Source of the DNA: Bacteroidota bacterium
GTDB lineage: Bacteria; Bacteroidota; Bacteroidia; B-17B0; Aurantibacillaceae
Direction: 5' to 3'
Assembly (NCBI GenBank): GCA_023251755.1
Contig: JAHEYF010000010.1
Location: 12,323-76,322 of the forward strand
DNA: 64,000 nt
The translations under genes were made by a program, and so were the position numbers. The notes beneath the pieces are model-generated. The model worked only from the letters and a program-made list of their open reading frames with translations, searched no databases and had not been told where the DNA came from. Of the stretch, positions 37,460 to 59,460 are shown piece by piece; position 1 is the first letter of the stretch, and each line of letters opens with the position of its first letter.

Positions 37460-37726
37460 CTACACATCAAAAAACACATTCGCATCAATGCCATAATCCA
37501 CTACCATCGCCCAGAGCAATTTCAACGGGACATCCGACCTGCCATTGGCTATATTGGACATTATTTTTCCATCGTAACCATATTGCACACAAAAATCGCC
37601 GTATTCTGCAAACACCCCTTCCCTTTTCAGCTTATCAAACACCTCTATAAATTTATTCGACACTATGCTCTTTTGCCTGTACTTGCCTGTGAAACTCTTG
37701 TCTTTTTTTACCGGTGTTTTGCTCAT
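37460..37726 (-). CDS. Small HTH-like regulator
   Basis: This 88-aa basic protein ends in a helix-turn-helix-like block (FCVQYGYDGKIMSNIANGRS, then VPLKLLWAMVVDYGIDANVFF). The 205-aa regulator next to it has the same order of motifs (KREG, LL-A, Y-ID--F-F), so they are probably related DNA-binding proteins of the mobile element. Targets unknown. Confidence 0.6.
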   Translation of the reverse strand: MSKTPVKKDKSFTGKYRQKSIVSNKFIEVFDKLKREGVFAEYGDFCVQYGYDGKIMSNIANGRSDVPLKLLWAMVVDYGIDANVFFDV

Positions 37727-37799
37727 GGAGTAAAATTACCGAAAAAATTACAGCCTCCAAATCCAAAATCAACAAGCTTTCAGTACTCAGTAATTTCAT

Positions 37800-38417
37800 T
37801 TATTTTTTCTCCTTCTTAGCCAATGCATCGTGCAGCTCTAATAATTTAGCCTGCAGCTCAATGATCTGTTTGTCCTTGTTTGTTATTTCCTCCTTCATCT
37901 TATTCGTTGTTTTTTTTAAGCCTTCCAATTGTTTGGCCAGACGATCAGGATCCACATCAACACCACCATATTTAACAAGATGCGTAAATCCCTGCTGAAC
38001 CCTTTCCGGAGCTGACAAAAACACCTGGTCACCCATTGTTACATTTCCCTTTATATTCCCCACCACAGCATATTTCGCTGAATTCCCCGTCGCCACATTG
38101 TTTTTGCTCCCTTTGCTGCTCACCTTGTTGCCGGTATAAAAAACATTTTTAGTTTTCTCCACCGCAAATAAAAAACGGGGGTCAATGTTATACTTGTGAA
38201 TGGCCTTGAACAATAAATCCACCGTTACATAACGGCCTTCCCGCTTTAGCCCTGATATTTTAGACTGGTCATCCGTAATGGCAAAGGCAAATTCCTTACC
38301 CGTTTTAATGACCTTGTCTCTCAGGAGTTGCTTCATCGCATCAAAAAACAAAGCCGTGACTTCCTTTTTAATTGTTGCTTCATCATCGAATTCTAAAATT
38401 TTATTTACCTGATTCAT
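37800..38417 (-). CDS. HTH-like regulator with coiled-coil tail
   Basis: This 205-aa protein has an N-terminal XRE-like fold (about 20-90; GKEFAFAITDDQSKISGLKR, KYNIDPRFLF). A glycine/asparagine-rich middle section resembles short beta repeats (NNVATGNSAKYAVVGNIKG). A C-terminal coiled coil follows (about 160-205, KEEITNKDKQIIELQAKLL). It is divergent from the rightward module and has two operator-like sites in its upstream region. It is a good candidate for the element's repressor. Confidence 0.65.
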   Translation of the reverse strand: MNQVNKILEFDDEATIKKEVTALFFDAMKQLLRDKVIKTGKEFAFAITDDQSKISGLKREGRYVTVDLLFKAIHKYNIDPRFLFAVEKTKNVFYTGNKVSSKGSKNNVATGNSAKYAVVGNIKGNVTMGDQVFLSAPERVQQGFTHLVKYGGVDVDPDRLAKQLEGLKKTTNKMKEEITNKDKQIIELQAKLLELHDALAKKEKK

Positions 38418-38436
38418 AGTAACTTGTGTTTATATA

Positions 38437-38505
38437 TTGTCTTTTATTCAATTTATTTTGCAAATGAGGATAAATATACAATAATTTTGTTGTCTAATAA
38501 ACAAT
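38437..38505. promoter_or_regulatory. Pair of 16-bp operator-like sites
   Basis: Sites 38437-38452 and 38490-38505 share TTGTCT(N6)CAAT, with partial dyad symmetry (ATTG...CAAT). They are 53 bp apart, close to five helical turns. They lie between the divergent regulator and the rightward module. Confidence 0.5.
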
Positions 38506-38607
38506 TTTTAGCCCTCTATAAATTGTTTTTTCGTCATCAAATTTAAAGTAAAATAAATCAATTAAACAAATCAATTTTCTATTAACATTTAAAATCAATC
38601 ATCATTC

Positions 38608-38919
38608 ATGGAACTCATCATTTTTGAAAAAGAAAGCTATTACCAGGCTTTGGCAGAGATGAAAAAATTCATCAAAGAAGCCATCAGCGAAATCAAACCC
38701 TCCGCCTCACAGGCACCCATTGAGAGCAAAGAACAATGGGTGAACGCCAAAGAAGCGGAAGCCATTCTGCATTGCAGAAAAACCAAACTCAAAAAGTTGC
38801 GCGACGCTGCCCTCATCCGGGTGTATAAACACGAACGCAAAATACTTTACCACAAAAAAAGTCTGCTTGAATACCTTGAAGATTTTGCCAATAAGAGCAG
38901 AGGGACTTTCAAAACATAG
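38608..38919 (+). CDS. Excisionase-like HTH protein
   Basis: This 103-aa protein has a MerR/excisionase-type winged HTH: EQWVNAKEAEAILHCRKTKL then LRDAALIRVYKHERKIL and YHKKSLLEYLED. In related mobile elements such proteins direct excision or regulate transfer. It is the first rightward gene of the module. No integrase is visible nearby. Confidence 0.75.
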   Translation: MELIIFEKESYYQALAEMKKFIKEAISEIKPSASQAPIESKEQWVNAKEAEAILHCRKTKLKKLRDAALIRVYKHERKILYHKKSLLEYLEDFANKSRGTFKT

Positions 38920-39012
38920 TAAACAAAACAACATACAGGATTTTTAAGCAGTAGGCCTTTCGTTTTTTTTCACGGTTCAACCTAAACAAGCCCATCAAAA
39001 AAAACACCTATC

Positions 39013-39258
39013 ATGCAAATTAAACCTTTGGAATGGACCTATATTGGTTCCATTCACTGCCTGTGGACAGGAAAAACAGATTTCCTCCTGGGTGAGCTCT
39101 ACTTTTTTATTGACCCTATCCCGGATGAACCGGACAAGGTTTTTTTGCGTACAGAAATAAATGGCATACCCAATGTCACCTGTACCAACATTGCTGCGGC
39201 CAAAATCAAAGCCCAGCAAATATTAGACAACTATTCCATCAGTTTAGTATTGCCCTGA
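39013..39258 (+). CDS. Hypothetical protein of the mobile element
   Basis: This 81-aa protein has a beta-rich start (LEWTYIGSIHCLWTGK) and a helical tail (AAAKIKAQQILDNY). Similar tiny proteins occur in replication regions of mobile elements. No function can be assigned. The frame is supported by codon use and by position in a closely packed rightward series. Confidence 0.55.
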   Translation: MQIKPLEWTYIGSIHCLWTGKTDFLLGELYFFIDPIPDEPDKVFLRTEINGIPNVTCTNIAAAKIKAQQILDNYSISLVLP

Positions 39259-39283
39259 TTTTTTTAACAAAACACTTCATTCC

Positions 39284-39598
39284 ATGAACATCCGACTTGA
39301 ATACTCGGCCAGTACTGGTGCTTTTCATTTTGCAACAATCAATGAAGCCGGGGCCAACAAATTTACTTACGGCATACTTGCAGCCTCCATCCAAAGCGAC
39401 AAGGCCCTGCGCTTTTGTGCTTTGATGGAACTTAAATTCCCGGTATTAACAGACCCTGTAGAAGGCAAACAAAAACTGTTTCCAACATTTTTAGAAATAC
39501 GAAACGAGTATTTAAACTTTATTTACGAAGAAACGAATGCAATTGCCAGGAGCATGATCGCAACATTTAAAAGAAGATCAACACTTTTTAACAAATAA
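39284..39598 (+). CDS. Hypothetical protein of the mobile element
   Basis: This 104-aa protein has no signal peptide (MNIRLEYSASTGAFHFATIN) and a helical C-terminal part. It begins 25 nt after the previous stop and ends 11 nt before the replication-type gene. Family not recognised. Confidence 0.55.
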   Translation: MNIRLEYSASTGAFHFATINEAGANKFTYGILAASIQSDKALRFCALMELKFPVLTDPVEGKQKLFPTFLEIRNEYLNFIYEETNAIARSMIATFKRRSTLFNK

Positions 39599-39609
39599 AA
39601 ATTCAAACC

Positions 39610-40872
39610 ATGATAATAGTCAACTACTCTGTTGCTTTCAAAGCTTTAAACAGTTTTGTAGACAAGTACAACGAGCTGTCCGGGCCGGCCCTCCACAAAT
39701 TAAAAACAGGGGCCGTCTGCTGTGCGAAAGAACTGATCCGTATTTACGGTATCTCCTTACTGAAAGTCAACAGCTTTGCAGAAATAGACAAACAGCAGCT
39801 TCCCTCCCTGCACACCAATAACCAGCAGCTTGCAAAAATGGTTAAATGCAGTTCGCGCAGCATCCAGCGCTATATCCTCCACTTGCAAAAAGCAGGAATC
39901 ATCAGCGGCAAAAAATACCACGGCTCCAATGCAAATTACGAAGTCTGGATTAAACCTGAGATACTTTGCATTGGTGAAAAATTAGATGTTGATAAGGTGA
40001 ACAAAGAGCTTGAAGAGGCTTTGGAGGAGGCAGAAAAAGAGGAGCAGAAACAGGGGCTTGCAGCGGAGCAAAAGACAAATTGTCCACATACATATTCTTC
40101 TAACAGTAAATACACTACTAATTTATTAATAGACGTTGAAACTGTTGAAAACCCCAGACAAAAAAATTCTTTTACCGGAAACACAGGGGAAATAGCCAGC
40201 CTGTCTTCAAAAAACCGGAAACAGGTTGCGCGCAAAATTTTTGAAAGCAGTAGCACTGCAAGCAGTATAAATACAGGGGAAATAGCCTCGCGTTTGGAAG
40301 AAGCAGACAAAGGGCCGGTGGCCCCTGCCGATCCTGAACGCGAGCTTTTCCTCAATATTTATCCTAAGCTACTATGGAATATGGCCAGAAACCTCCTATA
40401 CAAGAACATGGATTTAACAGAACACCAGATTGAATCCGGAAAAAAATTAGTACGGCATCTGTATTCAAAATCAAGCATAGAAAAAATTCCGGATTCTCAC
40501 CAGATTTATGTGGACCGCATTGCCTTAGTGGCTAAATACATAGCCAAAAAACCGGAGTGCCGTTTTGTACCTATTCCCACTATTTATTTTGATACCACCA
40601 ACCCCACTGGTTTTGTGGGAACAAAAAACTGGTACATCGCCGACCAACAAAGAAAAAAAGAAATTGAACGTGAACTGATTTTAAAAAGGCTCATCAGAAA
40701 ATACACCAACAACCTTAAACAGGAAGCCTGCAAACGGTTACCCCCTTTAAAATTATTCCGCCAATGCGAAAACACCTTAGGCAAATTAGGGGAACCAGGC
40801 CTCGTGCAAAAATTTCATGCATCGGTTTTACACTATGAATGTTATGGCCAACTCGAATATTCCCACAATTAA
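39610..40872 (+). CDS. Winged-HTH replication/regulatory protein
   Basis: This 420-aa protein has an N-terminal wHTH region (about 65-120; LAKMVKCSSRSIQRYILHLQ). An acidic Glu/Gln-rich linker follows, with two NTGEIAS words about 30 residues apart (near 192 and 221), and then a helical C-terminal domain (LFLNIYPKLLWNMARNLLY). The layout resembles plasmid or conjugative-element replication initiators, but no initiator motif is definite. It could also be a transcription factor. Confidence 0.6.
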   Translation: MIIVNYSVAFKALNSFVDKYNELSGPALHKLKTGAVCCAKELIRIYGISLLKVNSFAEIDKQQLPSLHTNNQQLAKMVKCSSRSIQRYILHLQKAGIISGKKYHGSNANYEVWIKPEILCIGEKLDVDKVNKELEEALEEAEKEEQKQGLAAEQKTNCPHTYSSNSKYTTNLLIDVETVENPRQKNSFTGNTGEIASLSSKNRKQVARKIFESSSTASSINTGEIASRLEEADKGPVAPADPERELFLNIYPKLLWNMARNLLYKNMDLTEHQIESGKKLVRHLYSKSSIEKIPDSHQIYVDRIALVAKYIAKKPECRFVPIPTIYFDTTNPTGFVGTKNWYIADQQRKKEIERELILKRLIRKYTNNLKQEACKRLPPLKLFRQCENTLGKLGEPGLVQKFHASVLHYECYGQLEYSHN

Positions 40873-40918
40873 TTTTTTAGAACAAATCCAAATAAATTAA
40901 CCATCAAAACAAAACACC

Positions 40919-41332
40919 ATGATCGATTTATTCAACATCGAAAAGCAGGCCGCCAAACGCATCCATGCTTTCTTACTCCACAAGGCGACAGAAGAAAACT
41001 TAGACGTCGAACAATTAAAATTTATCCTGAACAGCAAAGAGGCTAAAGCCGGCTTGCGCCTGCATTACCGACAAAGCTTTATTAAAAACCTTGATTTAAA
41101 AGAGCTCTGCGACTTTTTCGGCAAACCATACAATGCCTCCACAGAAACACAAGTCGGCCTGGTGTTTCAACAAAAGGCGGAAGAAGAAAAAATAAGTCTG
41201 GATGAAATGAACATCATTGTTTGCCTGCACAAGGGAACGATTGGCACTTTTCTTTACCGGGAAAAATATTTTGTTAAGCGCCTTTCCAATTTAGAATTAA
41301 TCAAACACTTTTTTTTAGAAGGGGGGCAATAA
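40919..41332 (+). CDS. Hypothetical protein
   Basis: This 137-aa mainly helical protein is rich in Lys and Glu, and contains FNIEKQAAKRIHAFLLHKAT and IVCLHKGTIGTFLYREKYF. No domain is recognised. It is followed 1 nt later by the next gene, so they are co-translated. Confidence 0.55.
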   Translation: MIDLFNIEKQAAKRIHAFLLHKATEENLDVEQLKFILNSKEAKAGLRLHYRQSFIKNLDLKELCDFFGKPYNASTETQVGLVFQQKAEEEKISLDEMNIIVCLHKGTIGTFLYREKYFVKRLSNLELIKHFFLEGGQ

Positions 41333-41333
41333 G

Positions 41334-41633
41334 ATGCCCTGGAAAATAATCAGAGATTCCTTTTACAAATGCTGGGTAACTTTTATGGATGGAAAGACCG
41401 GTACTTTTTTCTCCCGGGACTGGAAACATAAATTTTCAAAAACAAGAAGCCCCACGCTGGGATTAAACCGGCTGAGAAAACTTATTTCCAAATGGAACGG
41501 CCAGGCAAAAGTGGCCATTATTTATGAACTGGAAAACCGAACAGAAATAGAACGTTACTACAAAGGGATTAAACACGAAAAACAAGATGCAACTAACCAA
41601 ACCATTAATAAAAAAGAAAATGAACACACTTAA
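41334..41633 (+). CDS. Hypothetical protein
   Basis: This 99-aa basic protein (MPWKIIRDSFYKCWVTFMDG) has a helical middle and a polar tail. It overlaps the start of the glycosyltransferase-like gene by 14 nt. Unrecognised family. Confidence 0.55.
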   Translation: MPWKIIRDSFYKCWVTFMDGKTGTFFSRDWKHKFSKTRSPTLGLNRLRKLISKWNGQAKVAIIYELENRTEIERYYKGIKHEKQDATNQTINKKENEHT

Positions 41634-42789
41634 AAAACTCTATGCGCATTTAAACAGTGCCAAAACTTTTAAAGACAAATACCCCGCTTATAACCCGGAG
41701 GACGAAAAAATCCATGTGCTGTTTATTTCCCCCTGCCTCAATGAAAGCGGCTATTACAGAATGATCCTGCCTGCCCTTGAAATGAACAGGACGAATTCCC
41801 ACAGGGCCATCCTCCTCCAGATACACAAATGGGACTTTAATAAATCGTTTGAGGAATACGACAACCCGGTGGATGTTCGTTTAATCAAATGGGCGGATTA
41901 TGTGGTCTTGCCTTTTACGATGACAGACATCAGTTATATCCTTAAGGCGATGAAAGAAATTAATTCCAATATTGATTTTGTGATGGACATGGACATCAAT
42001 TATTTTCAGTTGCCGGACTCGCACCCGGAGGCTAAAAAAATTACAGCCGAAGGAAAAAATACCCTGCTAAATAATTTATTTTTAATCGATATGCTGACCG
42101 CTCCCAACGAAGCCATCACCACTTATTTTCTGGACCTTGTGCAACAACACCAAAGGGAGTACCTGCTTTATTTTGAAAGCTATCCCAACCTGCTTTCTAA
42201 TTTTACCTTTGATGAGATCACTCATATTCAGCGCAACGAAACGGATAGAATTAAAATCGGCCTGCTACTGGAACACTACCAGGAAGCAGATCTAAGGCTC
42301 ATTGAAAAGCCCCTCGGCAGCCTGCTTGAGAAGCACGGGGATAAAATAGAATTCATCCTGTTTGGCTTTACAGAAAAAGCAGCAGAGCAGTGTAATTTAT
42401 TTAAAGGCCTCCCGGTCCGCTATGAAAGAACCGTCCACTTTACACTTTATTACGGGCAGCTCAATGAGCTTCGTTTTGATATAGGCTGGCTTCCCCTTTG
42501 CAACAGCCCCTTCAACGCTGCATCCAAAGCCTTTATGCGCTGGCTGGATTTTTCCTCCTTGATGGTTCCTGTGCTTGCCCCCAACATGGCTCCCTTCACA
42601 ACTTTAATAAAAGAAGCGGAGACAGGCTTTTTAATTTCAGACGAGCAGGAATGGATTGAAAAAACAGAAAGGCTGCTGGAAAATTTACAATTCAGAAGGG
42701 ACATGGGAGCCGCTGCATTTAAAGAGGCCTGGGAAAATTACAGCTACACAGCAAAAGGAATTCAAAGGCTCCGGGCGGTGTTCATTTAA
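41620..42789 (+). CDS. Glycosyltransferase-like (GT-B/GT4-type) protein
   Basis: This 389-aa protein has a GT-B pattern: KIHVLFISPCLNESGYYRMI at the N-terminus, an acceptor-side helix, and a C-terminal donor-site region (DIGWLPLCNSPFNAASKAF, ETGFLISDEQEWIE). It would transfer a sugar to an unknown acceptor, perhaps surface glycan or DNA. The ATG at 41620 is preferred; an earlier start at 41587 would extend into the previous gene. The start is inside an A-rich leader. Confidence 0.65.
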   Translation: MNTLKKLYAHLNSAKTFKDKYPAYNPEDEKIHVLFISPCLNESGYYRMILPALEMNRTNSHRAILLQIHKWDFNKSFEEYDNPVDVRLIKWADYVVLPFTMTDISYILKAMKEINSNIDFVMDMDINYFQLPDSHPEAKKITAEGKNTLLNNLFLIDMLTAPNEAITTYFLDLVQQHQREYLLYFESYPNLLSNFTFDEITHIQRNETDRIKIGLLLEHYQEADLRLIEKPLGSLLEKHGDKIEFILFGFTEKAAEQCNLFKGLPVRYERTVHFTLYYGQLNELRFDIGWLPLCNSPFNAASKAFMRWLDFSSLMVPVLAPNMAPFTTLIKEAETGFLISDEQEWIEKTERLLENLQFRRDMGAAAFKEAWENYSYTAKGIQRLRAVFI

Positions 42790-43201
42790 AAAAAGTCCCT
42801 ACAGAAAAGTCCGGGCTTTTCCAGTCCGGTATATTAAGGGCTCCCGTATCCCCGTCTAAAAAGCCGATCACCAGCCACTTCTCGCCGCCGTTGTATTCGG
42901 CCAGAAGTGGGATGCGCGAAGGAAGGGAGCTGCGGTTAATGCTATACCGATAGAAACCCTCTTGCCTGGAATGGCTCTTTATGAAATTTATTTTTAACAG
43001 TTCTTTGGTAGTGGTGAATTCTATGCACTCGGCTTCGAGGCCGGTGGAAGAATGAACTTTATTTTCTATAATCTTATACAAGTGCTGTTGTTTTTCTAAT
43101 TGCAATTTAGAAAAAGTTTGCCGTTTTTTTTTGAAATGTGAATAAGCTAAATAGCTGGATGTCACGGGGAAGAAAAAAAAGAAATTTAAAACTTGCCGCA
43201 A
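42782..43201 (-). CDS. Hypothetical protein, opposite strand
   Basis: This 139-aa protein has a hydrophobic N-terminus (VLNFFFFFPVTSSYLAY) that could be a membrane anchor or signal. The soluble part contains GLEAECIEFTTTKELLKINF and EKWLVIGFLDGD. Its 3' end overlaps the convergent glycosyltransferase-like gene by 8 nt. It is the only leftward gene inside the rightward module. Not recognised. Confidence 0.55.
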   Translation of the reverse strand: MRQVLNFFFFFPVTSSYLAYSHFKKKRQTFSKLQLEKQQHLYKIIENKVHSSTGLEAECIEFTTTKELLKINFIKSHSRQEGFYRYSINRSSLPSRIPLLAEYNGGEKWLVIGFLDGDTGALNIPDWKSPDFSVGTFFK

Positions 43202-43282
43202 ACGGCAACTTTGGTCTTAGGATTTTGAAAAAGGGCGTATTAGTTTTACAGCCGTAAATAAAAAAAAGCAGATGGCAGGGTA

Positions 43283-43579
43283 AAGCCGGGTTTTCAAGAG
43301 TCCCGCTTCGATTGCCGGAGAGCTTTGGTTAACAGTGGATAAAGGAAAACTTCGGTAGAGAAATAGTTTCAAGATTATTTTTCCGGGTTCCCTCCGGCAT
43401 TCACAAACTGTTAATTGAATAAAACAGGCATACCGGCCTGCGGGCTTTGGTAGAGAAGTGGTTTCAAGACTGCTTTTCCGGGTTTTCCAATCAGTGGTAT
43501 TTCCTGTTTCCTTATTGAACAGTAAAAGCAAGTTTGATCTGCCTTGGTAGAGGAATAGTTTCAAGACTATTTTTCCGGG
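43283..43579 (+). ncRNA. Array of four RNA hairpins with a TTCAAG loop
   Basis: Hairpins lie at 43283-43308, 43358-43383, 43453-43478 and 43550-43575. Each has a 10-bp stem and the same TTCAAG hexaloop. The last three also share flanking GGTA and CGGG. Across the last three copies, stem changes keep pairing on the plus strand, including one A-U to G-C change and several G-U wobbles; on the minus strand these would be mismatches. The first copy has one C-C mismatch. Spacing (75, 95, 97 nt) is not a multiple of three, which argues against a coding repeat. They form a leader upstream of the methylase gene. Confidence 0.75.
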
Positions 43580-43630
43580 ACATACAGCAGCCTTTTCTTT
43601 CCTGTTTGTTTTACTATCCAAAAATTTTAA

Positions 43631-43648
43631 AGCCCGTAAAGGCGGGCT
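43631..43648 (+). promoter_or_regulatory. Hairpin just before the methylase start codon
   Basis: AGCCCG (43631-43636) pairs with CGGGCT (43643-43648) across a 6-nt loop, 5 nt before the ATG at 43654. It could hide the ribosome entry site or act as a weak attenuator. Confidence 0.5.
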
Positions 43649-43653
43649 CCGCC

Positions 43654-46449
43654 ATGAACAAAAAACATCCGATCAAAGCTGCCGCTCCTGAGAAGTGTGC
43701 AGACAGTTTTAATGTTGCAACAGGTACAAAAACAATTGAACTGAATTTTAATCTGAGGCCCTGCCCTGAATTAGAAGCCAAACTGAGGGTAAACGGTTTC
43801 CGTTCTTATCCCTTACCCGGACAACTAAGTTGGTATCAAAAGCCTTCAGTTGAAGTGGAAGCCTTTATAGAAAAATTAAAGTCTGCCTTGACCAATCATC
43901 CCGAAGGCCCTGAACTACACCTGGAGCCTTCGTATGAAGCAGGCATTAAAAATTTAGAAAACAAACAGTTCAGCTATGTTCAGTTTTTTATGAAGGATAA
44001 TACAGCCATCAACTACATTGTCTTTGAGCCTTCCAAACCAAGGGCAGAAGTTATTGCTTTCGCTTTTGCCCGTCAATTGTTTGCGGAAAAATTTAATTCG
44101 CTACTGGTCAGCCCCCGCACATTTATCCGTGAAGCAAGAATTTTATTTACTGAAGGCAAAGTAATTTTTTCTGAATTAAATAAAGGCATAAATTTTGAAC
44201 CAATTGATATTACTGAACCGGAGCCACTTCAATTAGATAAACCTGTTGAAGATAAAATTGAAAAAGCCATTCCTGAACAGGAAAATAAACAGGTTGAATC
44301 AAACAATTCAAAAGCCGAACACATAAAAGTTCAGCCTTATTCCACTATTTATTCCAGGCTCATTCAGGTGATCCCCGGCTTGGAACAGCATCTAAGGGAA
44401 GGCATTGAATCCGGTAAATCAACATTAAATACTGCGGCCATAATGGATTTGAATTATGATTTTCTGGGCAAAGATGCAAAGGGGCAATACAGCATTGCCC
44501 TGGCACATTATTACAAACAAAACGGGGACATGGTTCCTGATCCCGATATGCAGATCAGGGTGATGCCAGATACTAAAATGGCCGAAGCCCTGAGCTATCA
44601 GGATATTTACGGTTTTCAGGAAATTTATTCTGAAAGGGATGGCAAAGAAACAGTAGACCTGCGCCTGAAAAAAGACCTGAATGGTTTTCTGAAAACCTGG
44701 CTGGGCAACCTCATTCAACAGGGGCATAAAATTATTTTAACAAAAGAGCAGGAATTACCTGATACCTCTTCAATAAAAACAGAAAACTTGGGCGATGACC
44801 CCTTAACAAATGAGTTTGGAGTGTTTACCGCTGGGACAGCAAGAAAAAATTTTGAGAAAATTATTGTACCCATTTCAAAAGGGGCAGGTTTTAAAGCAGA
44901 GATTTCCCTGGCCCAGACTTCCAACGGAGATTTCAGAATGGGGCTTACCTGCATGAAAAACTTCGGGGATGCTTCGGGAAGCTCATACAGCCCATCCATT
45001 GAAGGGAGTTCCTACTCTGATAGAAAATCAGCTCTGGCAGCTGCCTTGCATGAACTTGAACTGGACATAGAAAAAAAAATGCTGGAACCAGACCTTATTT
45101 TAAACAATGAAGACAATAAAAAAAACAGGTTAATACTTGCACGACGTGATGTCAGAGAGTTCGCAAAAAAGAACGGTGTTCTTCTTCCACAAATAAAGGA
45201 AGTTAGAACGGAGGAAAATGCCGGCAACAAAAAACAGGAAGTGATAAAGGCTTTGTCAACTGCCTATTGGCGCAAGGAAGACGAAGCCTATCCGGGCAAT
45301 AAAATTAACATCAACGGAACTGATTTTCAGTCTGCACGTTTGCGGGAATTGTTAATGGACAAGTTTGGCAAGCTTCCCCTCTCGACACAATTGTCTGTTG
45401 CAGATGAAATGGCCCGCTTGTTTAAAGAGCGTCGTCCGATAGAGCACTATGAAAAAGATTTAATCAGCCCCGGTAAAAAAGGAAATGAAAAAAAAATGAT
45501 CATCATCCGCCATTATATCGAGGACATGATTATTGACAACGACCTGCTTAAAAGGACAGGTAATAAACAAGGTGTCCTGCAATTTTTAATTCAAATCCTC
45601 ATTAACACAACTGAAAAATTAGTGGATATGCCCAACGAAAAAACAACAACAGCACTACCTCACACCTGTACTGAGCGCAGCCGAAGTAGCAGAAAATCCC
45701 CTTTTGAACTCAATAAAGACATAGAGGCTTTGATTGATAAAAAGGATAGGGAAAACAATACTTACACAGAGGAAGACAGGCTGTTGATGCAATCCTATAC
45801 CGGATCGGGAGGCCTGTTGAATGCAGGCGCCACAGGCCGTGGGGTCTTGTATGAATATTTTACACCTGAAGAAATTGTAAAAAAAATGTGGGGGCTTGCA
45901 TTTAAATACGGTTTTACGGGCGGTGCTGTATTGGAGCCTGCCTGCGGTACAGGCAACTTTTTTAAGTATGCACCGGCCAGGACAAGTTTATTTGCTTATG
46001 AAACCAATCACTACTCCAAACGGATTACTCAAATACTTTACCCCAAAGCCATCATCAGGGAAATGGCTTTTGAGAGTATTTTCTACCTGGGCAATGTTCA
46101 CCTCAAAGGGAAGCCGGGCATAACACAGCGTTTTGATTTAATAATTGGCAATCCGCCCTATGGTGAGTTCACGGGCAAGTATGCAGGCATGGGCGAAAAA
46201 CAATACACGGGTGCAACGGAATACGAGCAGTACTTTATTTTACGCGGCCTGGATGTTTTAAAAAAGGAAGGCCTCTTGATTTTTATTGTACCCAGTACTT
46301 TTTTACTGAACAATGATAAGTTCAATAAGACCAAAGAGAAAATTGCTGAAAAGGCTGATCTCATTGATGCGTACCGCTTACCAACAAGGCTGTTTAAAAC
46401 AACAGACATTGGAACGGATATAGTCGTTTTTAGAAAGTTGGAAGGTTGA
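43654..46449 (+). CDS. DarB-like N6-adenine methylase half
   Basis: This 931-aa protein ends in a methylase domain with YFTPEEIVKKMWGLA, motif I VLEPACGTGNFFKY (about residue 758), motif IV IIGNPPYGEF (about 830) and EYEQYFILRGLDVLKKEG. A DUF6908-like block (IALAHYYKQNGDMVPD) is near residue 290. In DarB-type proteins the methylase is fused to a helicase. Here the ORF stops after FRKLEG and the helicase is a separate gene. A 20-bp ACTGAGCGCAGCCGAAGT-type repeat is translated at about residues 672-678 (TERSRSS). Starts at 43654; the upstream open frame crosses the hairpins and is unlikely coding. Confidence 0.82.
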   Translation: MNKKHPIKAAAPEKCADSFNVATGTKTIELNFNLRPCPELEAKLRVNGFRSYPLPGQLSWYQKPSVEVEAFIEKLKSALTNHPEGPELHLEPSYEAGIKNLENKQFSYVQFFMKDNTAINYIVFEPSKPRAEVIAFAFARQLFAEKFNSLLVSPRTFIREARILFTEGKVIFSELNKGINFEPIDITEPEPLQLDKPVEDKIEKAIPEQENKQVESNNSKAEHIKVQPYSTIYSRLIQVIPGLEQHLREGIESGKSTLNTAAIMDLNYDFLGKDAKGQYSIALAHYYKQNGDMVPDPDMQIRVMPDTKMAEALSYQDIYGFQEIYSERDGKETVDLRLKKDLNGFLKTWLGNLIQQGHKIILTKEQELPDTSSIKTENLGDDPLTNEFGVFTAGTARKNFEKIIVPISKGAGFKAEISLAQTSNGDFRMGLTCMKNFGDASGSSYSPSIEGSSYSDRKSALAAALHELELDIEKKMLEPDLILNNEDNKKNRLILARRDVREFAKKNGVLLPQIKEVRTEENAGNKKQEVIKALSTAYWRKEDEAYPGNKININGTDFQSARLRELLMDKFGKLPLSTQLSVADEMARLFKERRPIEHYEKDLISPGKKGNEKKMIIIRHYIEDMIIDNDLLKRTGNKQGVLQFLIQILINTTEKLVDMPNEKTTTALPHTCTERSRSSRKSPFELNKDIEALIDKKDRENNTYTEEDRLLMQSYTGSGGLLNAGATGRGVLYEYFTPEEIVKKMWGLAFKYGFTGGAVLEPACGTGNFFKYAPARTSLFAYETNHYSKRITQILYPKAIIREMAFESIFYLGNVHLKGKPGITQRFDLIIGNPPYGEFTGKYAGMGEKQYTGATEYEQYFILRGLDVLKKEGLLIFIVPSTFLLNNDKFNKTKEKIAEKADLIDAYRLPTRLFKTTDIGTDIVVFRKLEG
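45669..45688 (+). repeat. Translated ACTGAGCGCAGCCGAAGT repeat
   Basis: This short imperfect-dyad repeat is of a type common between genes in Bacteroidota. Here it lies inside the methylase gene and is read as TERSRSS. It keeps the frame. Confidence 0.7.
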
Positions 46450-46680
46450 AAAGTTTAAAAGTTAGAAGGTTGAAAAGTTGGAAAGTTGTAAGGTTAGAAA
46501 GTTTAAAAGTAGCAAAATGAGAGAGCTACTATCAGGCACAAGAACCCTGCTCACTACTCAAACCAATATCAATTAATTTCTACTAATATCAAAACTCAAT
46601 ACTAACACCTCACTACTCCAACCAATATCAATTAATATCCAACAATATCCCAATATCCACTAATATCTAAATATAAAAAA
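46437..46680 (+). repeat. GGTTGAAAAGTTGG and AATATCAATTAATAT repeat spacer
   Basis: The first part (46437-46510) is a GAAAGTTGGAAGGTTG tandem repeat that starts in the last codons of the methylase gene and ends that ORF. The second part (about 46555-46675) repeats CCAATATCAATTAATATC-like words. There is no ORF. Confidence 0.7.
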
Positions 46681-46983
46681 ATGATTCATAATTACCTGAT
46701 CGGCTCAGGAGTGTTTTACAACAAGAACAAAGGAGGCGATCAACAATTAAACTTACAGGCTATGGCAAAGGACAGGAACCAAATTGCGGAACTCAAAAAA
46801 CTCATCCGTGAAGAGCTCAAAGAATGCAATTCCATACTCTGGCCAAAGGTATGCGAGATGCAAAGCACAGAAAAAGGTTTGGAAAAAATTGAAGAACTAA
46901 TTATCCGAAACATTGCCGAAGAAGGCATGGGCATTGGCTCGGCCATTGCACTGATTGAACAGGAATTAGGCCATCAACAATAA
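46681..46983 (+). CDS. Hypothetical 100-aa protein between methylase and helicase
   Basis: The first ~27 residues (LIGSGVFYNKNKGGDQQLN) precede an internal ATG at 46762 (MAKDRNQIAELKKL) that could be the true start. The rest is helical and acidic. It starts directly after the repeat spacer and ends 19 nt before the helicase gene. No family recognised. Confidence 0.5.
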   Translation: MIHNYLIGSGVFYNKNKGGDQQLNLQAMAKDRNQIAELKKLIREELKECNSILWPKVCEMQSTEKGLEKIEELIIRNIAEEGMGIGSAIALIEQELGHQQ

Positions 46984-47002
46984 GCGGGAAGGAGGAACAC
47001 AC

Positions 47003-50000
47003 ATGAAACAGGATGATAAAATAAATTTTGAAGAACTGCAATATGTGGTGGACGAGCCTGTGCCCGGAAAGGAACTGGCCTGGCAGCTCACACCCATTGA
47101 ATACCAGTCTTCTCAGGCTATCATCAGAAGTGGTATGCCTTATCCTTTGGAGGAAAAAGACAAGGATCTGCACAAACAACTTGTAGCCTGGGCTGTACAG
47201 CAGGGAAAAGATGTGCCTGAAGAGATACTGGAATTTTACCCGGAATTAAATTTTGATTCAACACAAAATTTATCCGGTATCGAACAGGAGTATAAGGAGG
47301 CCATTGATAAAAAAGATTTTTTGGAAGCAGCAAGGGTTCTATACAAATTGTTTGAGAATGTTATTAAAGGGGAATACATTGAACTCGTTCCATTTTTTAT
47401 ACGTGAAGGGAACAATCCCCTCATAAAAAAAGAATTAAAACTAATAGGCCTCGGCAACTTAACTATTGAGTTGTTGGACAATGAAGAATTTAAAGCGCAG
47501 CTACAAACAAATATCTGGAACCTTATACCCGAAGAATATAAAAAACCTGCACCAACAATTAAAGCCATTGAATGGGAAGCTGACCCACAGAACAAGGCTT
47601 TAGCTGGACTTGTGAAAGAATTTTTAGGCACGGATGAATTTAGGTTAAGTACACTCGGAGTTGATTTTGAAAAAGAAGGGACTGTGGCCACCGATGCACA
47701 AAAACTTATTTTTCTGAACAAGGCTTTTGAAGGGAAAAAGGGTATCTACTGCATGAGCAAAAAATGCAACGACACCTTTCCTGAAAACAATCACCTTCCT
47801 ATTGATGTAAAATTCCCGGACTATATCAGCATTTTACCTAATGAGTTTTCAGTGGTGCTGACTGTACAATTGGAAGTGCTACGCAATTATTGTAAAAGCC
47901 TTATAAAAACTTTTTTAACCAGAAAAACCCTTTCCCTCAAATTCCAATATAATCCTGATGGACTCATTGGTTTTAATGCCAGCTATCTATTGGATTGTAT
48001 AGAAGCCTTTATGAAACTGGGGTTTAAAGAAGCGGACTTTGGTTTTATTGCTCCCGATAAATTAATACTCATCACTCCTGTTGGCAAAAACAGCGAGGCA
48101 ATTCAGCAGACTGTTCCATTTATTGTACTCATGCCTGTAATGCTCCAGGTAAAAAAAGTAAGTGAGATGGAAAAGGGTATTCTTTATTTTGATTTGATGG
48201 ATCAGTCCATTAAAACATCAGGCATAAACGACCCTGTTAAGACCTCAATATCAAACAAGGAATTGGGTACTTCAACGATTGAACTAAGAACGAAGAACTT
48301 TGAACTAAGAACTCCTAATCATGAACTGTTAAAGGGCGATGAATGGTTCAAACAACATCCGGGTAAAGTTTTAGGAGAACCTTATGAAACCACCAACCGC
48401 TTTAATAAAAAGGTCATCAAAATCAGGGGGGACATGGACAATGTTGTACAAGGCATCGATGTGCCTGCTGTCCATATTGCTGATGAAAATACGGAAGCCC
48501 TTGAAACAATTATCAAAGAACCACTTGATGATTTATTAAATGATGAAAGTAAAAAGGCCAATATCGAAAAAGTCATTGCCGAAACAAAAATTGCCCGTAC
48601 CGAAAAACAACTCAAACAACTCAAAGGAGAAAAAGACAAGTACGAAGAGGGCTGCCCGGAGGAATATTATTGTTTTGAAGAAATCATGCAGCAATACAAC
48701 AAAGGGATTGCTGATGATGAAATTAAAGCCTGGATCTGGTACAAAAGAAAATCAGGAGGCTTTAACGATGAGAAGGTTATTCTCAACACCAAAAACGGCT
48801 GGTCAAAATATGTAGTTCCTTTAGCAGAAGTATCACGATATCTTGAAGGTTGGTTAAAACAGGGCATCCTTTGTTTTTACCAGGCTGATTATATCCCCGC
48901 TGTTTTGTATTACGCCGAAAATATTTATCAACGGCTGGAGGTATTGCAAAAAGAAAAAGCACAGCTCATTGAAAAGTTTGGAGAAGATCAATACGAAAGA
49001 CAGTTCAAAGGCCTTCAAAACATTTTGCCGGCAAGACTAAGTTTAACAAACCCAGTTGCTGATGATCGTTTATTTATTAAACCGGATGCAGCTTTTCTTA
49101 AAGATTTTTCTATTCAACAATTAGCGGATGGAACGAAGTTGAATCAGGAGGATGAAAATTCAAGCGGTGGCATTGGCCTTGTAATAGCCTTTAAAAAATG
49201 GCTGAAAGAAATCCCCAAAGAAGAATTTAAAAAATCAACTGATTTTAACATCATACAATATTACCTCGACAAAAAAAACCTGCCCCGTTACATTGACGAA
49301 GAGCAAAAACAACGCACAAAACAATACGCCAGGCAGGAAGGTGATCAGTTTTTCGTGCGTTTTCTTGCAGAAGCTTTAACAGCCGAAGATCAGTTAAGGC
49401 TTGAAGAAAGCTGGAACGCCCGGTACAATGCGTATATCGACATCAATTATTTTAAAGTACCGGTGGCTTTTACCTGCTCCAGCACATTTAAAAACAAACC
49501 TTTGTTCATTCGTGCTGCACAAAGAGAAGGCATAGGATTTATGTCCGTGCATGGTTCGGGTTGTGTGGCTTATGATGTAGGTGTAGGCAAAACCATGACG
49601 GCTATTCTTTCCCTTGCCCAGGCCCTTGAAACGGGGCAATGCAAACGCCCCTTTGTTGTTGTGCCCAACCAGACTTATTCCAACTGGTTGAACGAATTAA
49701 GAGGTTTTGTTGAGGATGGAAAAATTGTTTTAAGCGGTATACTCCCCCAGTACCCTGTAAACGACTTGTACAACCTGAGTGAGGAGTACATTGAAAAATT
49801 AAAAGATAAAAATGGGGCCGTTCAATTGTTACCCGAAAACAGTATCACCGTTTTAACTTACGAGGGTTTTAACCGCTTGTGTTTTTCAGAACCAACCTGG
49901 GAGACTATAGGAGAGCAATTGTTTGAAATGCTGAACCAGGGTATGGAAAAGCAGGACAAAAAATCTAAACGGGAGCGGGAACAATTGTATGAAAACATTG

Positions 50001-52201
50001 AAGAAATGATGGGCAAGGGTATTAGAGGCGGACTTGTGAACATTGAAGACTTAGGCCTGGATTATATAGTGGTGGATGAAGCCCATGCCATGAAAAAATC
50101 CTTTACCCATGTTCGTGGTGAAATAAAAGGCAATGAACGGGAAAAATCCAATTACGATATCAGTTCCGGCGAAGCCTCCATGATTGCCCTGCGGGGATTT
50201 ATGATTGCTCAGTACATTTTGCACAACAACAACATGCGCAATGTACAATTGCTCACCGCAACTCCTTTTACCAACAGCCCTTTGGAAATTTATTCCATAC
50301 TCGCTTTAATTGGTTTTCAGCAATTGGAACAATGGGGCATCAAAAACATCAAAGACTTTTTTGATACGTTTATTAAAACAAGTATAGAATTGGTGATTAA
50401 CGCCAGGCTTCAGCCCGAGCGCAAAGAGGTGGTGCTTGGTTTTCACAACCTCATTGCATTGCAGCAATTGATCTTTAAGTTTATCATTTATAAATCAGGC
50501 GAAGAAGCAAACATACAACGACCAAATAAAATTGTATTGCCCCTGTTGAATAAAATGGTAAACGGGCAGCTTATCCCGCTTTCAGCGGATGAACAGGTGT
50601 CCACCAACCTGCCCATGAGTGCCCTGCAAAAGATGTATATGCAGGACATTGAAGCCTATATTACCGGTAAAGGCGACCCCGATAACTTTTGTGTCAACAG
50701 CAAAGGCCAGACGGAAGATGAAACGGAAAAAGGAAGTACTACAGGCAAGGCCATTCCTGTTGATGAAAATAAATTAAGCAAGGAAGAAAAAGAAGGTGCA
50801 AGGGTTTTGCGTGGATTAAGTTTTGCAAGGCAATTGGCCCTGAGCCCATTTTTGTATGCCTGCAACCCGAACCACAATCCTTCTTTTACAGAGTATGTAG
50901 AAACCTCTCCCAAGTTGTTTTATATTATGCAGTGTATACAATCCGTTAAACACTACCATGAATCAAAAGGAGAAGAAGTTTCAGGGCAGGTGATTTATAT
51001 GAATGCAGGTGTACATTTTTTTCCCCTGCTTAAAGAGTATTTAATTAAGAAGATAGGCTTTAAAGAAAATGAAGTGGGCATTATCAGTTCCGGTATCAGC
51101 CGCAGCAAAAAGGAAGGCATTAAAGAACGTTTCCAGGCCGGTGCTGTAAAAATTATTATCGGAAGCGCCACCATTAAAGAAGGCATCAACCTGCAAAACC
51201 GTACAACGGTATTGTACAATTGCTGGCTGGACTGGAACCCAACGGATGTAAAACAATTAGAAGGAAGGGTCTGGAGGTTCGGGAACATCTTTGCCAATGT
51301 GCGTATCGTAAACCCCCTCATGGAAGACTCTGTGGATATGTTCATCTTTCAAAAGCTGGAAGAAAAAACCAGCCGCATCAATGAGATCTGGCAAAGAGCC
51401 GGGAAATCAAATTCACTCAAGCTCGAAGAATTTAACCCGGCCGAATTAAAGATGGGTTTGGTTACCAATCCCCGTATGCTGGCGGAACTGATGCTGATGG
51501 AAGAAAAAGAAAAGTTGAACGATGAGATCACAGACCTTTTTAACAAGCGAACGATTATTGAACAGGTGAACGCTCATCGTAAACTATTTAATGAAAACAT
51601 TCCCCACATCAAAAAAACAGCTGACAAGTACCGGCCACAAAAGGAAGGTTCGAAAGGAAGAAACACAGACACCTACCTGAGTATTTTCAGGGACTACTTA
51701 GACGATGAAAATGCCAACCATAATTATAAAGACGAGGGTATTTTTCAACAGGTAAGAAGCGCCAATACAGCTCTGAACCGGGCTTTAAAAGAAGTGCTTC
51801 AACCCAGAGGCCTTGTCATGGACTTTGATGAAAAAACAGTCTTGCTCCGCATCGACAAGGAAATAAAAAAATTACAGCGTACACTCGATGATACAACCGG
51901 GGCTGTGGCCATTGAAACCAAAATGGAGGATATTGAAAAGGAAAGAATCAAAAAAGGTTTTAAACGAAAAACAGTGAAAGAACGTGTGGAAGAATTTGCC
52001 CGGCTGAACCCCCACTTGCTATCAGAATTGATGGTATATGCCCAGGGAGAGGAAGCTGAGTTTAAACGAAAAAAACAAGTTACCAAAGGAGAAGAACTGG
52101 AAGGCTCAGCGGATGCAGTGGAGGAACTGGAATCGCTTATAAAGGACATGGAAGAAATGGAACAACTACTTGCTGAACTGGACCGCTTAAATGCAGCCTG
52201 A
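47003..52201 (+). CDS. Giant DarB-like SNF2-type helicase
   Basis: This 1732-aa protein has an N-terminal ~850 residues of unknown function and then a SNF2-type motor: Walker A AYDVGVGKTMTAILS (about 855), DEAH-like VVDEAHAMKK (about 1023), LLTATPFTNSPLE, and IIIGSATIKEGINLQNRTTV and QLEGRVWRFGN (about 1390-1425). A coiled-coil tail follows. The partner methylase is the gene before. Phage P1 DarB and related proteins fuse both and protect DNA from restriction. A GAACTAAGAAC-type repeat is translated near residue 427 (IELRTKNFELRTPNHELL). A role in protecting the element during transfer is inferred. Confidence 0.85.
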   Translation: MKQDDKINFEELQYVVDEPVPGKELAWQLTPIEYQSSQAIIRSGMPYPLEEKDKDLHKQLVAWAVQQGKDVPEEILEFYPELNFDSTQNLSGIEQEYKEAIDKKDFLEAARVLYKLFENVIKGEYIELVPFFIREGNNPLIKKELKLIGLGNLTIELLDNEEFKAQLQTNIWNLIPEEYKKPAPTIKAIEWEADPQNKALAGLVKEFLGTDEFRLSTLGVDFEKEGTVATDAQKLIFLNKAFEGKKGIYCMSKKCNDTFPENNHLPIDVKFPDYISILPNEFSVVLTVQLEVLRNYCKSLIKTFLTRKTLSLKFQYNPDGLIGFNASYLLDCIEAFMKLGFKEADFGFIAPDKLILITPVGKNSEAIQQTVPFIVLMPVMLQVKKVSEMEKGILYFDLMDQSIKTSGINDPVKTSISNKELGTSTIELRTKNFELRTPNHELLKGDEWFKQHPGKVLGEPYETTNRFNKKVIKIRGDMDNVVQGIDVPAVHIADENTEALETIIKEPLDDLLNDESKKANIEKVIAETKIARTEKQLKQLKGEKDKYEEGCPEEYYCFEEIMQQYNKGIADDEIKAWIWYKRKSGGFNDEKVILNTKNGWSKYVVPLAEVSRYLEGWLKQGILCFYQADYIPAVLYYAENIYQRLEVLQKEKAQLIEKFGEDQYERQFKGLQNILPARLSLTNPVADDRLFIKPDAAFLKDFSIQQLADGTKLNQEDENSSGGIGLVIAFKKWLKEIPKEEFKKSTDFNIIQYYLDKKNLPRYIDEEQKQRTKQYARQEGDQFFVRFLAEALTAEDQLRLEESWNARYNAYIDINYFKVPVAFTCSSTFKNKPLFIRAAQREGIGFMSVHGSGCVAYDVGVGKTMTAILSLAQALETGQCKRPFVVVPNQTYSNWLNELRGFVEDGKIVLSGILPQYPVNDLYNLSEEYIEKLKDKNGAVQLLPENSITVLTYEGFNRLCFSEPTWETIGEQLFEMLNQGMEKQDKKSKREREQLYENIEEMMGKGIRGGLVNIEDLGLDYIVVDEAHAMKKSFTHVRGEIKGNEREKSNYDISSGEASMIALRGFMIAQYILHNNNMRNVQLLTATPFTNSPLEIYSILALIGFQQLEQWGIKNIKDFFDTFIKTSIELVINARLQPERKEVVLGFHNLIALQQLIFKFIIYKSGEEANIQRPNKIVLPLLNKMVNGQLIPLSADEQVSTNLPMSALQKMYMQDIEAYITGKGDPDNFCVNSKGQTEDETEKGSTTGKAIPVDENKLSKEEKEGARVLRGLSFARQLALSPFLYACNPNHNPSFTEYVETSPKLFYIMQCIQSVKHYHESKGEEVSGQVIYMNAGVHFFPLLKEYLIKKIGFKENEVGIISSGISRSKKEGIKERFQAGAVKIIIGSATIKEGINLQNRTTVLYNCWLDWNPTDVKQLEGRVWRFGNIFANVRIVNPLMEDSVDMFIFQKLEEKTSRINEIWQRAGKSNSLKLEEFNPAELKMGLVTNPRMLAELMLMEEKEKLNDEITDLFNKRTIIEQVNAHRKLFNENIPHIKKTADKYRPQKEGSKGRNTDTYLSIFRDYLDDENANHNYKDEGIFQQVRSANTALNRALKEVLQPRGLVMDFDEKTVLLRIDKEIKKLQRTLDDTTGAVAIETKMEDIEKERIKKGFKRKTVKERVEEFARLNPHLLSELMVYAQGEEAEFKRKKQVTKGEELEGSADAVEELESLIKDMEEMEQLLAELDRLNAA
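48281..48316 (+). repeat. Translated GAACTAAGAAC repeat inside the helicase gene
   Basis: Two GAACTAAGAAC words linked by GAAGAACTTT are read in frame as part of IELRTKNFELRTPNHE. The same word family occurs between genes at 9435, 10071 and 53087. Confidence 0.75.
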
Positions 52202-52222
52202 TTTTAATTAAAACAACAACAC

Positions 52223-52828
52223 ATGACTCATTACAATCCATACGAATTGCTCAAAAAAGAAGGTATCGCAAAAAGCCTGTTGAGCGGGAAGTCCAAAAAA
52301 GTACTGGAGATTTACGACAAGTCAAAAGGCTTTTATGATAAACGCCCGGACAACGAAGGCGTTGCAGCCAATTTTGAAACAACAGCAGAAAAGGTTTTTA
52401 AAATTATTGAAGAAGACATCCATAGGATAAAAAAGGAAGCTATTGCGGAACAGGAAAAAAGAAAGGATACAGCGGAGCAAAAAGCGCTATCGAAAAAGGT
52501 ATTGGAAAAAACGGCTGTGATATTAGACGACTTAGCCCTGTGCAGGCAAAGGTTGAGGGAAGACCGCAAAGCAAAAATAGCGAGCGGTGAAATTAAAACA
52601 CCTAAGAAAAAAACAATCCTTGAGAAACTAAGAATGGATTTGATTCAGATCAGCATACTCATCCCTGAAAAATTAAGAGGAAATAAAAAGATTATGCAGG
52701 CCACAGAAAAAGCCATCCTCAATTTTTTACATGAATTAAAAAAGATCTGGAGCCTGAATAAAGTGAAGATCATAGAAGATGAATTGGCAGAGAAATTTAA
52801 AAAGATGGCAGACAGGTTTAAAAATTAA
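52223..52828 (+). CDS. Charged hypothetical protein
   Basis: This 201-aa protein is Lys/Glu-rich and strongly helical (EEDIHRIKKEAIAEQEKRKD), likely a coiled coil. No signal peptide, no motif. Second in the tight downstream series, 21 nt after the helicase gene. Confidence 0.6.
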   Translation: MTHYNPYELLKKEGIAKSLLSGKSKKVLEIYDKSKGFYDKRPDNEGVAANFETTAEKVFKIIEEDIHRIKKEAIAEQEKRKDTAEQKALSKKVLEKTAVILDDLALCRQRLREDRKAKIASGEIKTPKKKTILEKLRMDLIQISILIPEKLRGNKKIMQATEKAILNFLHELKKIWSLNKVKIIEDELAEKFKKMADRFKN

Positions 52829-52849
52829 TGGATAGAAAAAAATAAAATC

Positions 52850-53083
52850 ATGAACAGAAATGCAGTGATTATTACCAGTGTAGGCCTGGTGATTGGTGTG
52901 GCGGAAGCCCTGCTCTATCGAAGCCTGGGGGAAAGTGCCGGTGGAAAATTTGTTTTTAAAATACCCCCGCCCAAAGAATTTGCAACAACGATTGCGGTGG
53001 TGTTTTTTACTTCCATCCTGACAGCAGCCATTACCAATGGTATCGAATCCATGTTGCCAGAAGATAAAAAAGTTCCTGCATAG
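52850..53083 (+). CDS. Small two-helix membrane protein
   Basis: This 77-aa protein has two membrane helices (about 5-25, and 45-65; AVVFFTSILTAAITNG). Tiny membrane proteins of this kind are common in phages and conjugative elements. Function unknown; it sits between two charged soluble proteins. Confidence 0.6.
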   Translation: MNRNAVIITSVGLVIGVAEALLYRSLGESAGGKFVFKIPPPKEFATTIAVVFFTSILTAAITNGIESMLPEDKKVPA

Positions 53084-53163
53084 AAGTTCAATGTTCTTTG
53101 TTCTTAGTTCTTAGGGATCAACTATGCAAAAAGAACAACGGGCAAAATGCAGAACAAACAAAG

Positions 53164-53219
53164 ATTCGTGCATTCGTGGCAAATATTAATTGAAATACAA
53201 TTGCCACGAATGCACGAAT
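53164..53219. repeat. Perfect 19-bp inverted repeat (ATTCGTGCATTCGTGGC family)
   Basis: Arms 53164-53182 and 53201-53219 with an 18-nt AT-rich loop. GTTCTTAGTTC words flank it at 53087-53118 and 53284-53305. The spacer 53084-53303 has no gene. Confidence 0.8.
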
Positions 53220-53303
53220 GAAAACCATGAAAAACACATTTGATTGCACCCAATTCCTATTCACTAATCGCTATTAATTATAACAAACTAAGAACTGAGA
53301 ACT

Positions 53304-53999
53304 ATGAACAAAGAACTATTTCCCCATGAAAACTTTCTCGAACTCAATGCCCCTGAGTTGAAGAAAATAGAATTACCCGGTGAATTGCAAAAACGCATAA
53401 CCGGTTTTGAAGAACTCAAAGAAGGCCTGGACTTCACGCAGGGTGAAGACAAGCCCGAGCTGGAAGAAAAACTCGAATCCCTCTCCCATGAAATTGTGGA
53501 AGACCTGGAGGATTTTTTAGCGCATCACATTGAAAACAACGATGAGATCGAAGAGCGTGATGAACAAATTAAAGAACAGCAAGAAGAAACCCAATTACCC
53601 ATTATACAAAAACCCTTAATTATGGAACCAAAAATTAAACAAGAGGAAGCACTTTTGGAAGACCAGCAAGGAGAAAACACCAATGAGCAACACAGTGCAG
53701 ATGCGCCGCAGCAGCCCAAGGAGGAGCAGCCAGTGCCTGAGCAGTCGGAAGAAAAACAGGAAGCAGAAAAACCTGCTGAACCCGAAAAAGAACTCATCCC
53801 CGAAAAGACTGAACCCACAGATGAGGAGATACTTCAGCTTTTGTGGAACGATAAAAAACACCTGCTGCACCACAACGAAATTAAAGCCAGGGGTTTTAAA
53901 GCTCAACTCAATGACCGGAAAATCAATGTAGGGAAGTTTTGTTTGCACAAAGGGAAGTTTGACCGTTGTTATACACTATTCATCCGCCGATTTAAATAA
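53304..53999 (+). CDS. Acidic Glu/Pro/Gln-rich hypothetical protein
   Basis: This 231-aa protein has a low-complexity middle (about 90-165, rich in E, Q, P) and a C-terminal basic patch (FKAQLNDRKINVGKFCLHKG). The start codon is embedded in a GAACTATGAAC repeat word. The next gene's open frame overlaps, but I use its later ATG. Unrecognised. Confidence 0.6.
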   Translation: MNKELFPHENFLELNAPELKKIELPGELQKRITGFEELKEGLDFTQGEDKPELEEKLESLSHEIVEDLEDFLAHHIENNDEIEERDEQIKEQQEETQLPIIQKPLIMEPKIKQEEALLEDQQGENTNEQHSADAPQQPKEEQPVPEQSEEKQEAEKPAEPEKELIPEKTEPTDEEILQLLWNDKKHLLHHNEIKARGFKAQLNDRKINVGKFCLHKGKFDRCYTLFIRRFK

Positions 54000-54012
54000 A
54001 TCAAAAGCTACA

Positions 54013-54468: not shown

Positions 54469-54473
54469 GTGTT

Positions 54474-55307: not shown

Positions 55308-55318
55308 ATTCCCTCCGC

Positions 55319-59214: not shown

Positions 59215-59460
59215 GTGCGTCAGGCACATTCTTTTACTATAGCGTGCAAGTCTCAAACGAGAGTTACTGTACTTATCGTTAGCAGAGAGCAAGGGTGTCG
59301 CGGGTAACTACAAATCTGAATGAAGCTTAATGCAAATACTTGGGCCTACGAACAGAAACTATATACGAGGCGGAAGCATTAGGGTGATGTTGCAAACGAA
59401 ACAAAAGTCCGATACTGTACAGAAGATGATTACGTAAATGCAGAGACCACATGACACTAT
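59215..59460 (+). ncRNA. Group II intron 5' fragment (domain I)
   Basis: The start GTGCG (59215-59219) fits the 5' consensus. Further on GGGTAACTACAAATC, CTTGGGCCTACGAACAG and AAAGTCCGATACTG are strongly conserved domain I pieces. The sequence breaks at 59460, where an IS inverted repeat begins. No maturase or 3' end follows. A short hairpin and T-run lie just upstream, the usual insertion context of class C introns. Confidence 0.75.

Follow-up and report, generated by a model that had tools for sequence, protein, structure and literature searches.

Hairpins with conserved loops are familiar in the control of phage operons. The boxB/nut and put elements of lambdoid phages are RNA antitermination hairpins, which carry conserved loops and are found near the operon start. 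Phage coat-protein operators and CsrA-type multi-hairpin RNAs present a conserved loop on a variable stem, and multiple copies are possible. The iterons of lambda-type origins are tandem imperfect palindromes, while Frpo of the F plasmid is a folded single-stranded DNA promoter located in a conjugative element's leading region, upstream of an anti-restriction gene. The DarB-type dyad of polyvalent proteins couples an adenine methylase to an SNF2 helicase and is associated with anti-restriction (PMC5512222). Short arrays of TAACTGA repeats upstream of genes, some of them in Bacteroidetes, are described in an abstract that proposes a post-transcriptional role (PMC4679880).

Here we demonstrate that the leader of a DarB-like methylase gene, found within the 64-kb stretch of DNA that we analyzed (the window), contains hairpins that covary on the plus strand, occupy a conserved location and are nearly absent elsewhere in the host genomes. 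Judged from sequence comparison, the best explanation, to which we assign a probability of about 0.55, is that the region would be a transcribed, structured leader RNA of a DarB-like methylase-SNF2 helicase operon in provirus-like elements of Bacteroidia.

Hairpin array in the window

An earlier note on this DNA had described four plus-strand TTCAAG hairpins with 10-bp stems. All four were confirmed, with loops starting at 43293, 43368, 43463 and 43560 and start-to-start distances of 75, 95 and 97 nt (Table 1). They lie between a minus-strand ORF (42782-43201) and the methylase ATG at 43654. The GGTA/CGGG flanks reported for the last three copies are present, and GGTA is also in register at copy 1 (43279-43282), which had been missed. 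TTCAAG occurs 22 times on the plus strand and 28 times on the minus strand of the window, and a stem of at least 8/10 pairs is found only at the four array copies, all of them on the plus strand.

Table 1. Coordinates of the leader features and of the neighbouring genes in the window.
Feature	Position	Strand	Description
HTH protein	39610-40872	+	O-like/DnaD-like (replication initiation), weak match; synteny kept in relatives
Glycosyltransferase-like protein	41587-42789	+	400 aa; conserved left neighbour of the leader
Half-site of candidate operator	43116-43123		GTTTGCCG
Candidate operator	43193-43208	.	Inverted repeat TTGCCG-CAAA-CGGCAA
Promoter-like box	43241-43249	+	TAGTTTTAC; upstream of the array; by eye
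Hairpin copy 1	43279-43312	+	GGTA; stem 43283-43292/43299-43308; loop TTCAAG 43293-43298; one C.C mismatch
Hairpin copy 2	43354-43387	+	GGTA; stem 43358-43367/43374-43383; loop TTCAAG; then CGGG
Hairpin copy 3	43449-43482	+	GGTA, TTCAAG, CGGG form; 10/10 pairs
Hairpin copy 4	43546-43579	+	GGTA, TTCAAG, CGGG form; 10/10 pairs
Fifth hairpin	43631-43648	+	AGCCCGT[AAAG]GCGGGCT; ends 5 nt upstream of ATG 43654
Methylase	43654-46449	+	Led by the array; DUF6908 + N6_Mtase/Eco57I domain; DarB-like
100-aa conserved protein	46681-46983	+	Flanked by methylase and helicase; 59-70% identity to its counterparts in relatives
SNF2-type helicase	47003-52201	+	Methylase partner
Zot/HerA-type ATPase	55319-56239	+	Up to 84% identical in relatives

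In a gapless alignment of the four window copies, 97.5% of the 40 stem cells were paired versus 80.4 ± 4.4% in shuffles, and the covariation score was reached by none of 500 shuffles. Pairing-preserving changes are two-sided at five of the 10 stem pairs, where the earlier note had seen one. When the partner columns were slid by 1-3, pairing fell to 45-62%. Copy 1, which the covariance model scores at 46.5 bits, has the most altered stem (AAGCCGGGTT/AGTCCCGCTT) and so supplies most of these changes. All stem wobbles of the window copies are G-U when read on the plus strand; in the one register tested there were nine G.T cells and zero A.C cells, so that the minus strand would pair less well, as had been proposed. 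Since the four rows come from one locus and are related to each other, covariation from them alone is suggestive and falls short of proof.

The fifth hairpin reported just before the start codon is also present. It has one copy in the genome and is not conserved among the relatives. An alternative hairpin, GGCGG[GCT]CCGCC (43641-43653), overlaps it beside the methylase start codon, and the two are mutually exclusive, as in a switch; this switch-like pair (43631-43653) is not conserved in the leaders of relatives. Two ORFs overlap the array, namely a minus-strand ORF (43217-43621) and a TTG-started (43534) extension of the methylase frame. Alignment with relatives favours ATG 43654, not TTG 43534, as the methylase start.

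The exact hairpin pattern, searched in degenerate form, was absent outside its own genome in 100 relatives and 395 class genomes, and also from IMG/VR viral contigs. Across the same class genomes, a covariance model of the four copies gave one extra match, which lies inside a coding gene and does not contain the motif. Rfam 15 returned a single match in the whole window, to a group II intron at 59298, and left the array unmatched; matches to the leader at E ≤ 10 were all far under the gathering cut-offs, and seven relatives yielded tRNAs only. The absence of an Rfam match agrees with the previous statement that no described family has this form, and our literature searches found no description of an array of this form.

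Three other identities were considered and rejected. ARAGORN and the tRNA covariance model RF00005 gave no match to a tRNA or tRNA-like element. CRISPR arrays have near-identical repeats and unique spacers of constant length, whereas the stems of the window array vary, its spacing is 75/95/97 nt and its repeat identity is 85%. A type III toxin-antitoxin RNA was rejected because the gene downstream is a DUF6908 methylase, not a ToxN-like toxin.

UUNAAG hairpins in the leaders of related methylases

Relatives of the methylase in about a dozen Bacteroidia genomes have short-motif arrays in the equivalent leader, with most units evenly spaced 23-40 nt apart. Based on unit centres that were obtained from a motif scan and partly hand-picked, the units are spaced at 22-28 nt in L050, L055, L057, L063 and L080, at 37-41 nt in L059 and L060, and less regularly in L062, L081 and L082. 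The array motif GYCCTATAAGRRC occurs solely in the methylase leader in the seven host genomes searched. Among the units are hairpins with a UUNAAG loop, which is UUCAAG in the window and mostly UUAAAG in the relatives; the L056 leader is without a clear hairpin of this class. Recent 116-117-bp duplications, which are 93-95% identical, add whole unit blocks in L050 (8506-9205) and L051 (10341-10716).

Five of the 15 weak matches of the four-hairpin model fall on the sense strand of leaders, far above expectation (p = 1.6e-7), and the alignment in L050 (GTAGA..TTTAAAGA..TTCC) matches the window form, flanks included. We then scored every occurrence of TTTNAAGA, on either strand, in 13 oriented loci. 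Stems of at least 8/10 pairs were found at 19/29 occurrences on the leader sense strand versus 3/193 elsewhere (p = 3e-12), and at 15/25 in leaders when the window was left out (p = 4e-10), counts that overstate independence owing to the close kinship of loci L057/L058/L063 and L055/L080. Per hairpin, G.T and A.C cells averaged 1.10 and 0.38 in leaders, versus 0.97 and 0.98 elsewhere.

Covariation extends to this wider class. The 25 distinct TTTNAAGA hairpins, with rows chosen by motif only and not by pairing, contain 46 two-sided cells versus 21.6 ± 3.5 in shuffles, a value reached by 0/500, and slides of the partner columns score far lower than the true register. The 15 hairpins from relatives alone, in rows picked for their pairing, also covary. 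With a model of the wider class, 30/32 matches at E ≤ 1 lie in methylase leaders on the sense strand (two of the searched loci overlap others), and so do 14/16 matches across 11 whole host genomes; the model was built from these same hairpins, so the informative part is their rarity elsewhere. A class-wide search with it found no new cluster, single hairpins being too short for specificity.

The further copies that the earlier note had asked for were not recovered in the exact TTCAAG/GGTA/CGGG form (none in the 395 class genomes); the equivalent leader did yield them in the broader UUNAAG form. The leaders of relatives carry covarying UUNAAG hairpins, which strengthens the proposal of a structured plus-strand element leading a mobile-element methylase. 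What can safely be claimed is an array whose UUNAAG units are covarying sense-strand hairpins.

The remaining units behave differently. CTATA[AC]G in the relatives' arrays is oriented (24 sense vs 4 reverse), and the flanks of its units pair no better than at the same motif elsewhere. A reading in which all units of these arrays are RNA hairpins was rejected, as it is unsupported for the CTATAAG units and the strand preference in folding is inconsistent; whole leaders or units favour the minus strand in several relatives, with no constant preference. Pooled arm-shuffle tests gave a modest excess of within-unit pairing, and in each of the 11 leaders this excess was greater with G.T than with A.C. 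When all units of the arrays are pooled, G.T and A.C are balanced.

Operon, provirus-like element and proposed mechanism

Upstream of the array is a candidate operator/promoter block, and downstream is the start of the methylase gene. Other, lineage-specific inverted repeats occupy the equivalent place of the operator in relatives (TTGTACC-GA-GGTACAA; AGTTTT-GT-AAAACT). A second clade (L059, L060, L056) has a common inverted repeat, (T)TGTAC-CGAG/CGAA-GTACA, and a half-site upstream of its array, and this repeat is probably a repressor operator. TANTTTTAY can be seen by eye at the equivalent place in several relatives of the clade nearest the window, and we infer a promoter-like function for the TAGTTTTAC/TANTTTTAY box. 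Sigma-70-type promoter hexamers were not found in the leader; Bacteroidota promoters differ from the sigma-70 type. Terminator scans made few plus-strand calls, none of them consistent, and the 3' arms in relatives are U-rich.

An N6 adenine methylase domain is coupled to an SNF2-type helicase, as in a DarB-like dyad. The gene order common to relatives is HTH protein, glycosyltransferase-like protein, variable cargo, methylase, 100-aa protein, SNF2 helicase, additional conserved genes and ATPase. The small minus-strand ORF that separates the array from the glycosyltransferase-like gene (42782-43201) has no Pfam match; since relatives hold different genes in this slot, it has the look of a cargo site. 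Further downstream, past the shared genes, relatives encode a phage-lysis-type amidase, a tail-fibre-like protein and a number of small proteins that contain hydrophobic segments. Together with the Zot/HerA-type ATPase, which is likely a packaging-type ATPase, these genes suggest that the element family is a provirus. This provirus-like family in environmental Bacteroidia comprises window positions 37460-56239 and loci L049-L093.

The ATPase had zero matches in phage and plasmid collections, and no conjugation genes were recognised among the element genes scanned. A capsid candidate folded with low confidence (pLDDT 55) and its Foldseek matches were uninformative. The window copy of the element is probably truncated, since the capsid candidate is absent from the window's genome and a look near the window revealed no structural genes. 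At the element's right edge is an RF02001 group II intron domain (94 bits, 59298-59470), near which a DUF4372/DDE transposase is split over two ORFs (59839-60649).

The simplest reading is a leader RNA: the array lies between a promoter-like block and the start codon and shows sense bias, covarying stems, a constant loop and tolerance of spacing. Transcription would begin at an operator-controlled promoter just upstream of the array, and the RNA would fold into a row of UUNAAG-hexaloop stem-loops, which in relatives belong to an array of mostly regular spacing. Its control of the methylase-helicase operon would be in cis, with protein binding or attenuation as the probable means. A loop that stays constant while its stem varies suggests that a protein, encoded by the element or by the host, recognises it. 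Alternatively, since the arms in relatives are rich in A and U, pausing or attenuation is conceivable, with the A/U-armed hairpins as a series of weak sites at which polymerase could pause or terminate. The array may keep synthesis of a large DNA-modifying enzyme low, or time it to the moment of need; the operon codes for an anti-restriction pair, so close or timed control of its expression is plausible.

A more ambitious version is tentative and, in our view, doubtful. The UUNAAG hairpins would form an undescribed leader-RNA class, and an element-encoded protein would recognise them and thereby gate synthesis of the DarB-like methylase-helicase, while lineages keep the loop and re-invent stems, spacing and copy number. 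The array as such would contribute an RNA motif that is supported by covariation, lacks an Rfam match and belongs to a single gene of a phage-like element family, and it would give access to the question of how large anti-restriction enzymes are controlled in elements of this kind. The element family itself also deserves attention for its conserved ATPase unmatched in phage and plasmid collections.

Alternative readings and comparison with known systems

The earlier note had offered three roles, and its interpretation is partly supported overall. A leader controlling the methylase, possibly via an RNA-binding protein, fits best. A role as origin or transfer signal is unsupported and seems less probable, given that there is no origin-like skew switch at fourfold sites and that, among the genes scanned, phage-type genes were recognised instead of conjugation genes. 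We consider it unlikely that the array consists of double-stranded iterons or operators for a dimeric protein, e.g., an O-like initiator, at an origin or partition site. The near-palindromic, regularly spaced units of relatives, their folding without constant strand preference, the overall balance of G.T and A.C and the weak O-like/DnaD-like match of the neighbouring HTH protein would suit such sites, but the arms covary inside units instead of matching one consensus, the UUNAAG hairpins are skewed to G.T on the sense strand and CTATA[AC]G is oriented. Spacings of 22-28, 37-41 or 95-97 also occur without helical phasing, and shifts of up to half a helical turn suit RNA better than phased DNA binding. 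The array has no consistent skew switch at fourfold sites; an origin called by GC skew was rejected because the apparent whole-sequence switch near 43 kb was not upheld there. Action in single-stranded DNA, as a lagging-strand priming site or as an Frpo-like folded promoter that expresses an anti-restriction gene on entry, seems less likely again. The hairpins do precede an anti-restriction-type gene, a setting resembling that of Frpo, and G.T pairs form in DNA too. However, the amidase, the tail-fibre-like protein and the Zot/HerA ATPase, with no conjugation gene recognised among the genes scanned, imply that the element probably enters as duplex DNA, and the leader has no sigma-70-type hexamers.

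That the array is functionless, a relic of tandem duplication and repeat expansion, is improbable. The duplications in L050 and L051 and the apparently truncated window element are compatible with decay, but drift would neither preserve pairing while altering both sides nor hold a single loop motif in the same position in elements that have diverged. We give least credence to a decoy or sponge role, in which the hairpins would sequester a host RNA-binding protein, a nuclease or an enzyme that acts on tRNA, and would not be cis-regulators. Several copies, a conserved loop and loose geometry would suit a decoy, and GGTAGAG with the loop faintly recalls tRNA D and anticodon arms; against this, neither tRNA search gave a match, and the array is bound to the leader of one gene.

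The structured leader RNA that we prefer can be compared with described systems as follows. The DarB-type dyad matches the gene behind the array and not the leader, a word that is absent from the main text of its description (PMC5512222). TAACTGA repeats are identical heptamers with many loci per genome, for which the abstract mentions no covarying stems, and the UUNAAG array differs in this respect (PMC4679880). Lambda iterons resemble the array in being tandem imperfect palindromes, at roughly similar spacing and with an O-like protein nearby; they differ from it in that the array has covarying arms, single-strand bias and no skew switch at fourfold sites. Coat-protein operators and CsrA-type RNAs share its form, a loop on a variable stem, and Rfam gives no family relation. 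The likeness to boxB/nut and put lies in phage-coded, conserved-loop hairpins near the operon start that are read as RNA, whereas the window class has a UUNAAG hexaloop, several to many copies and other hosts. The array is a candidate new RNA motif within a known general kind, the structured leader.
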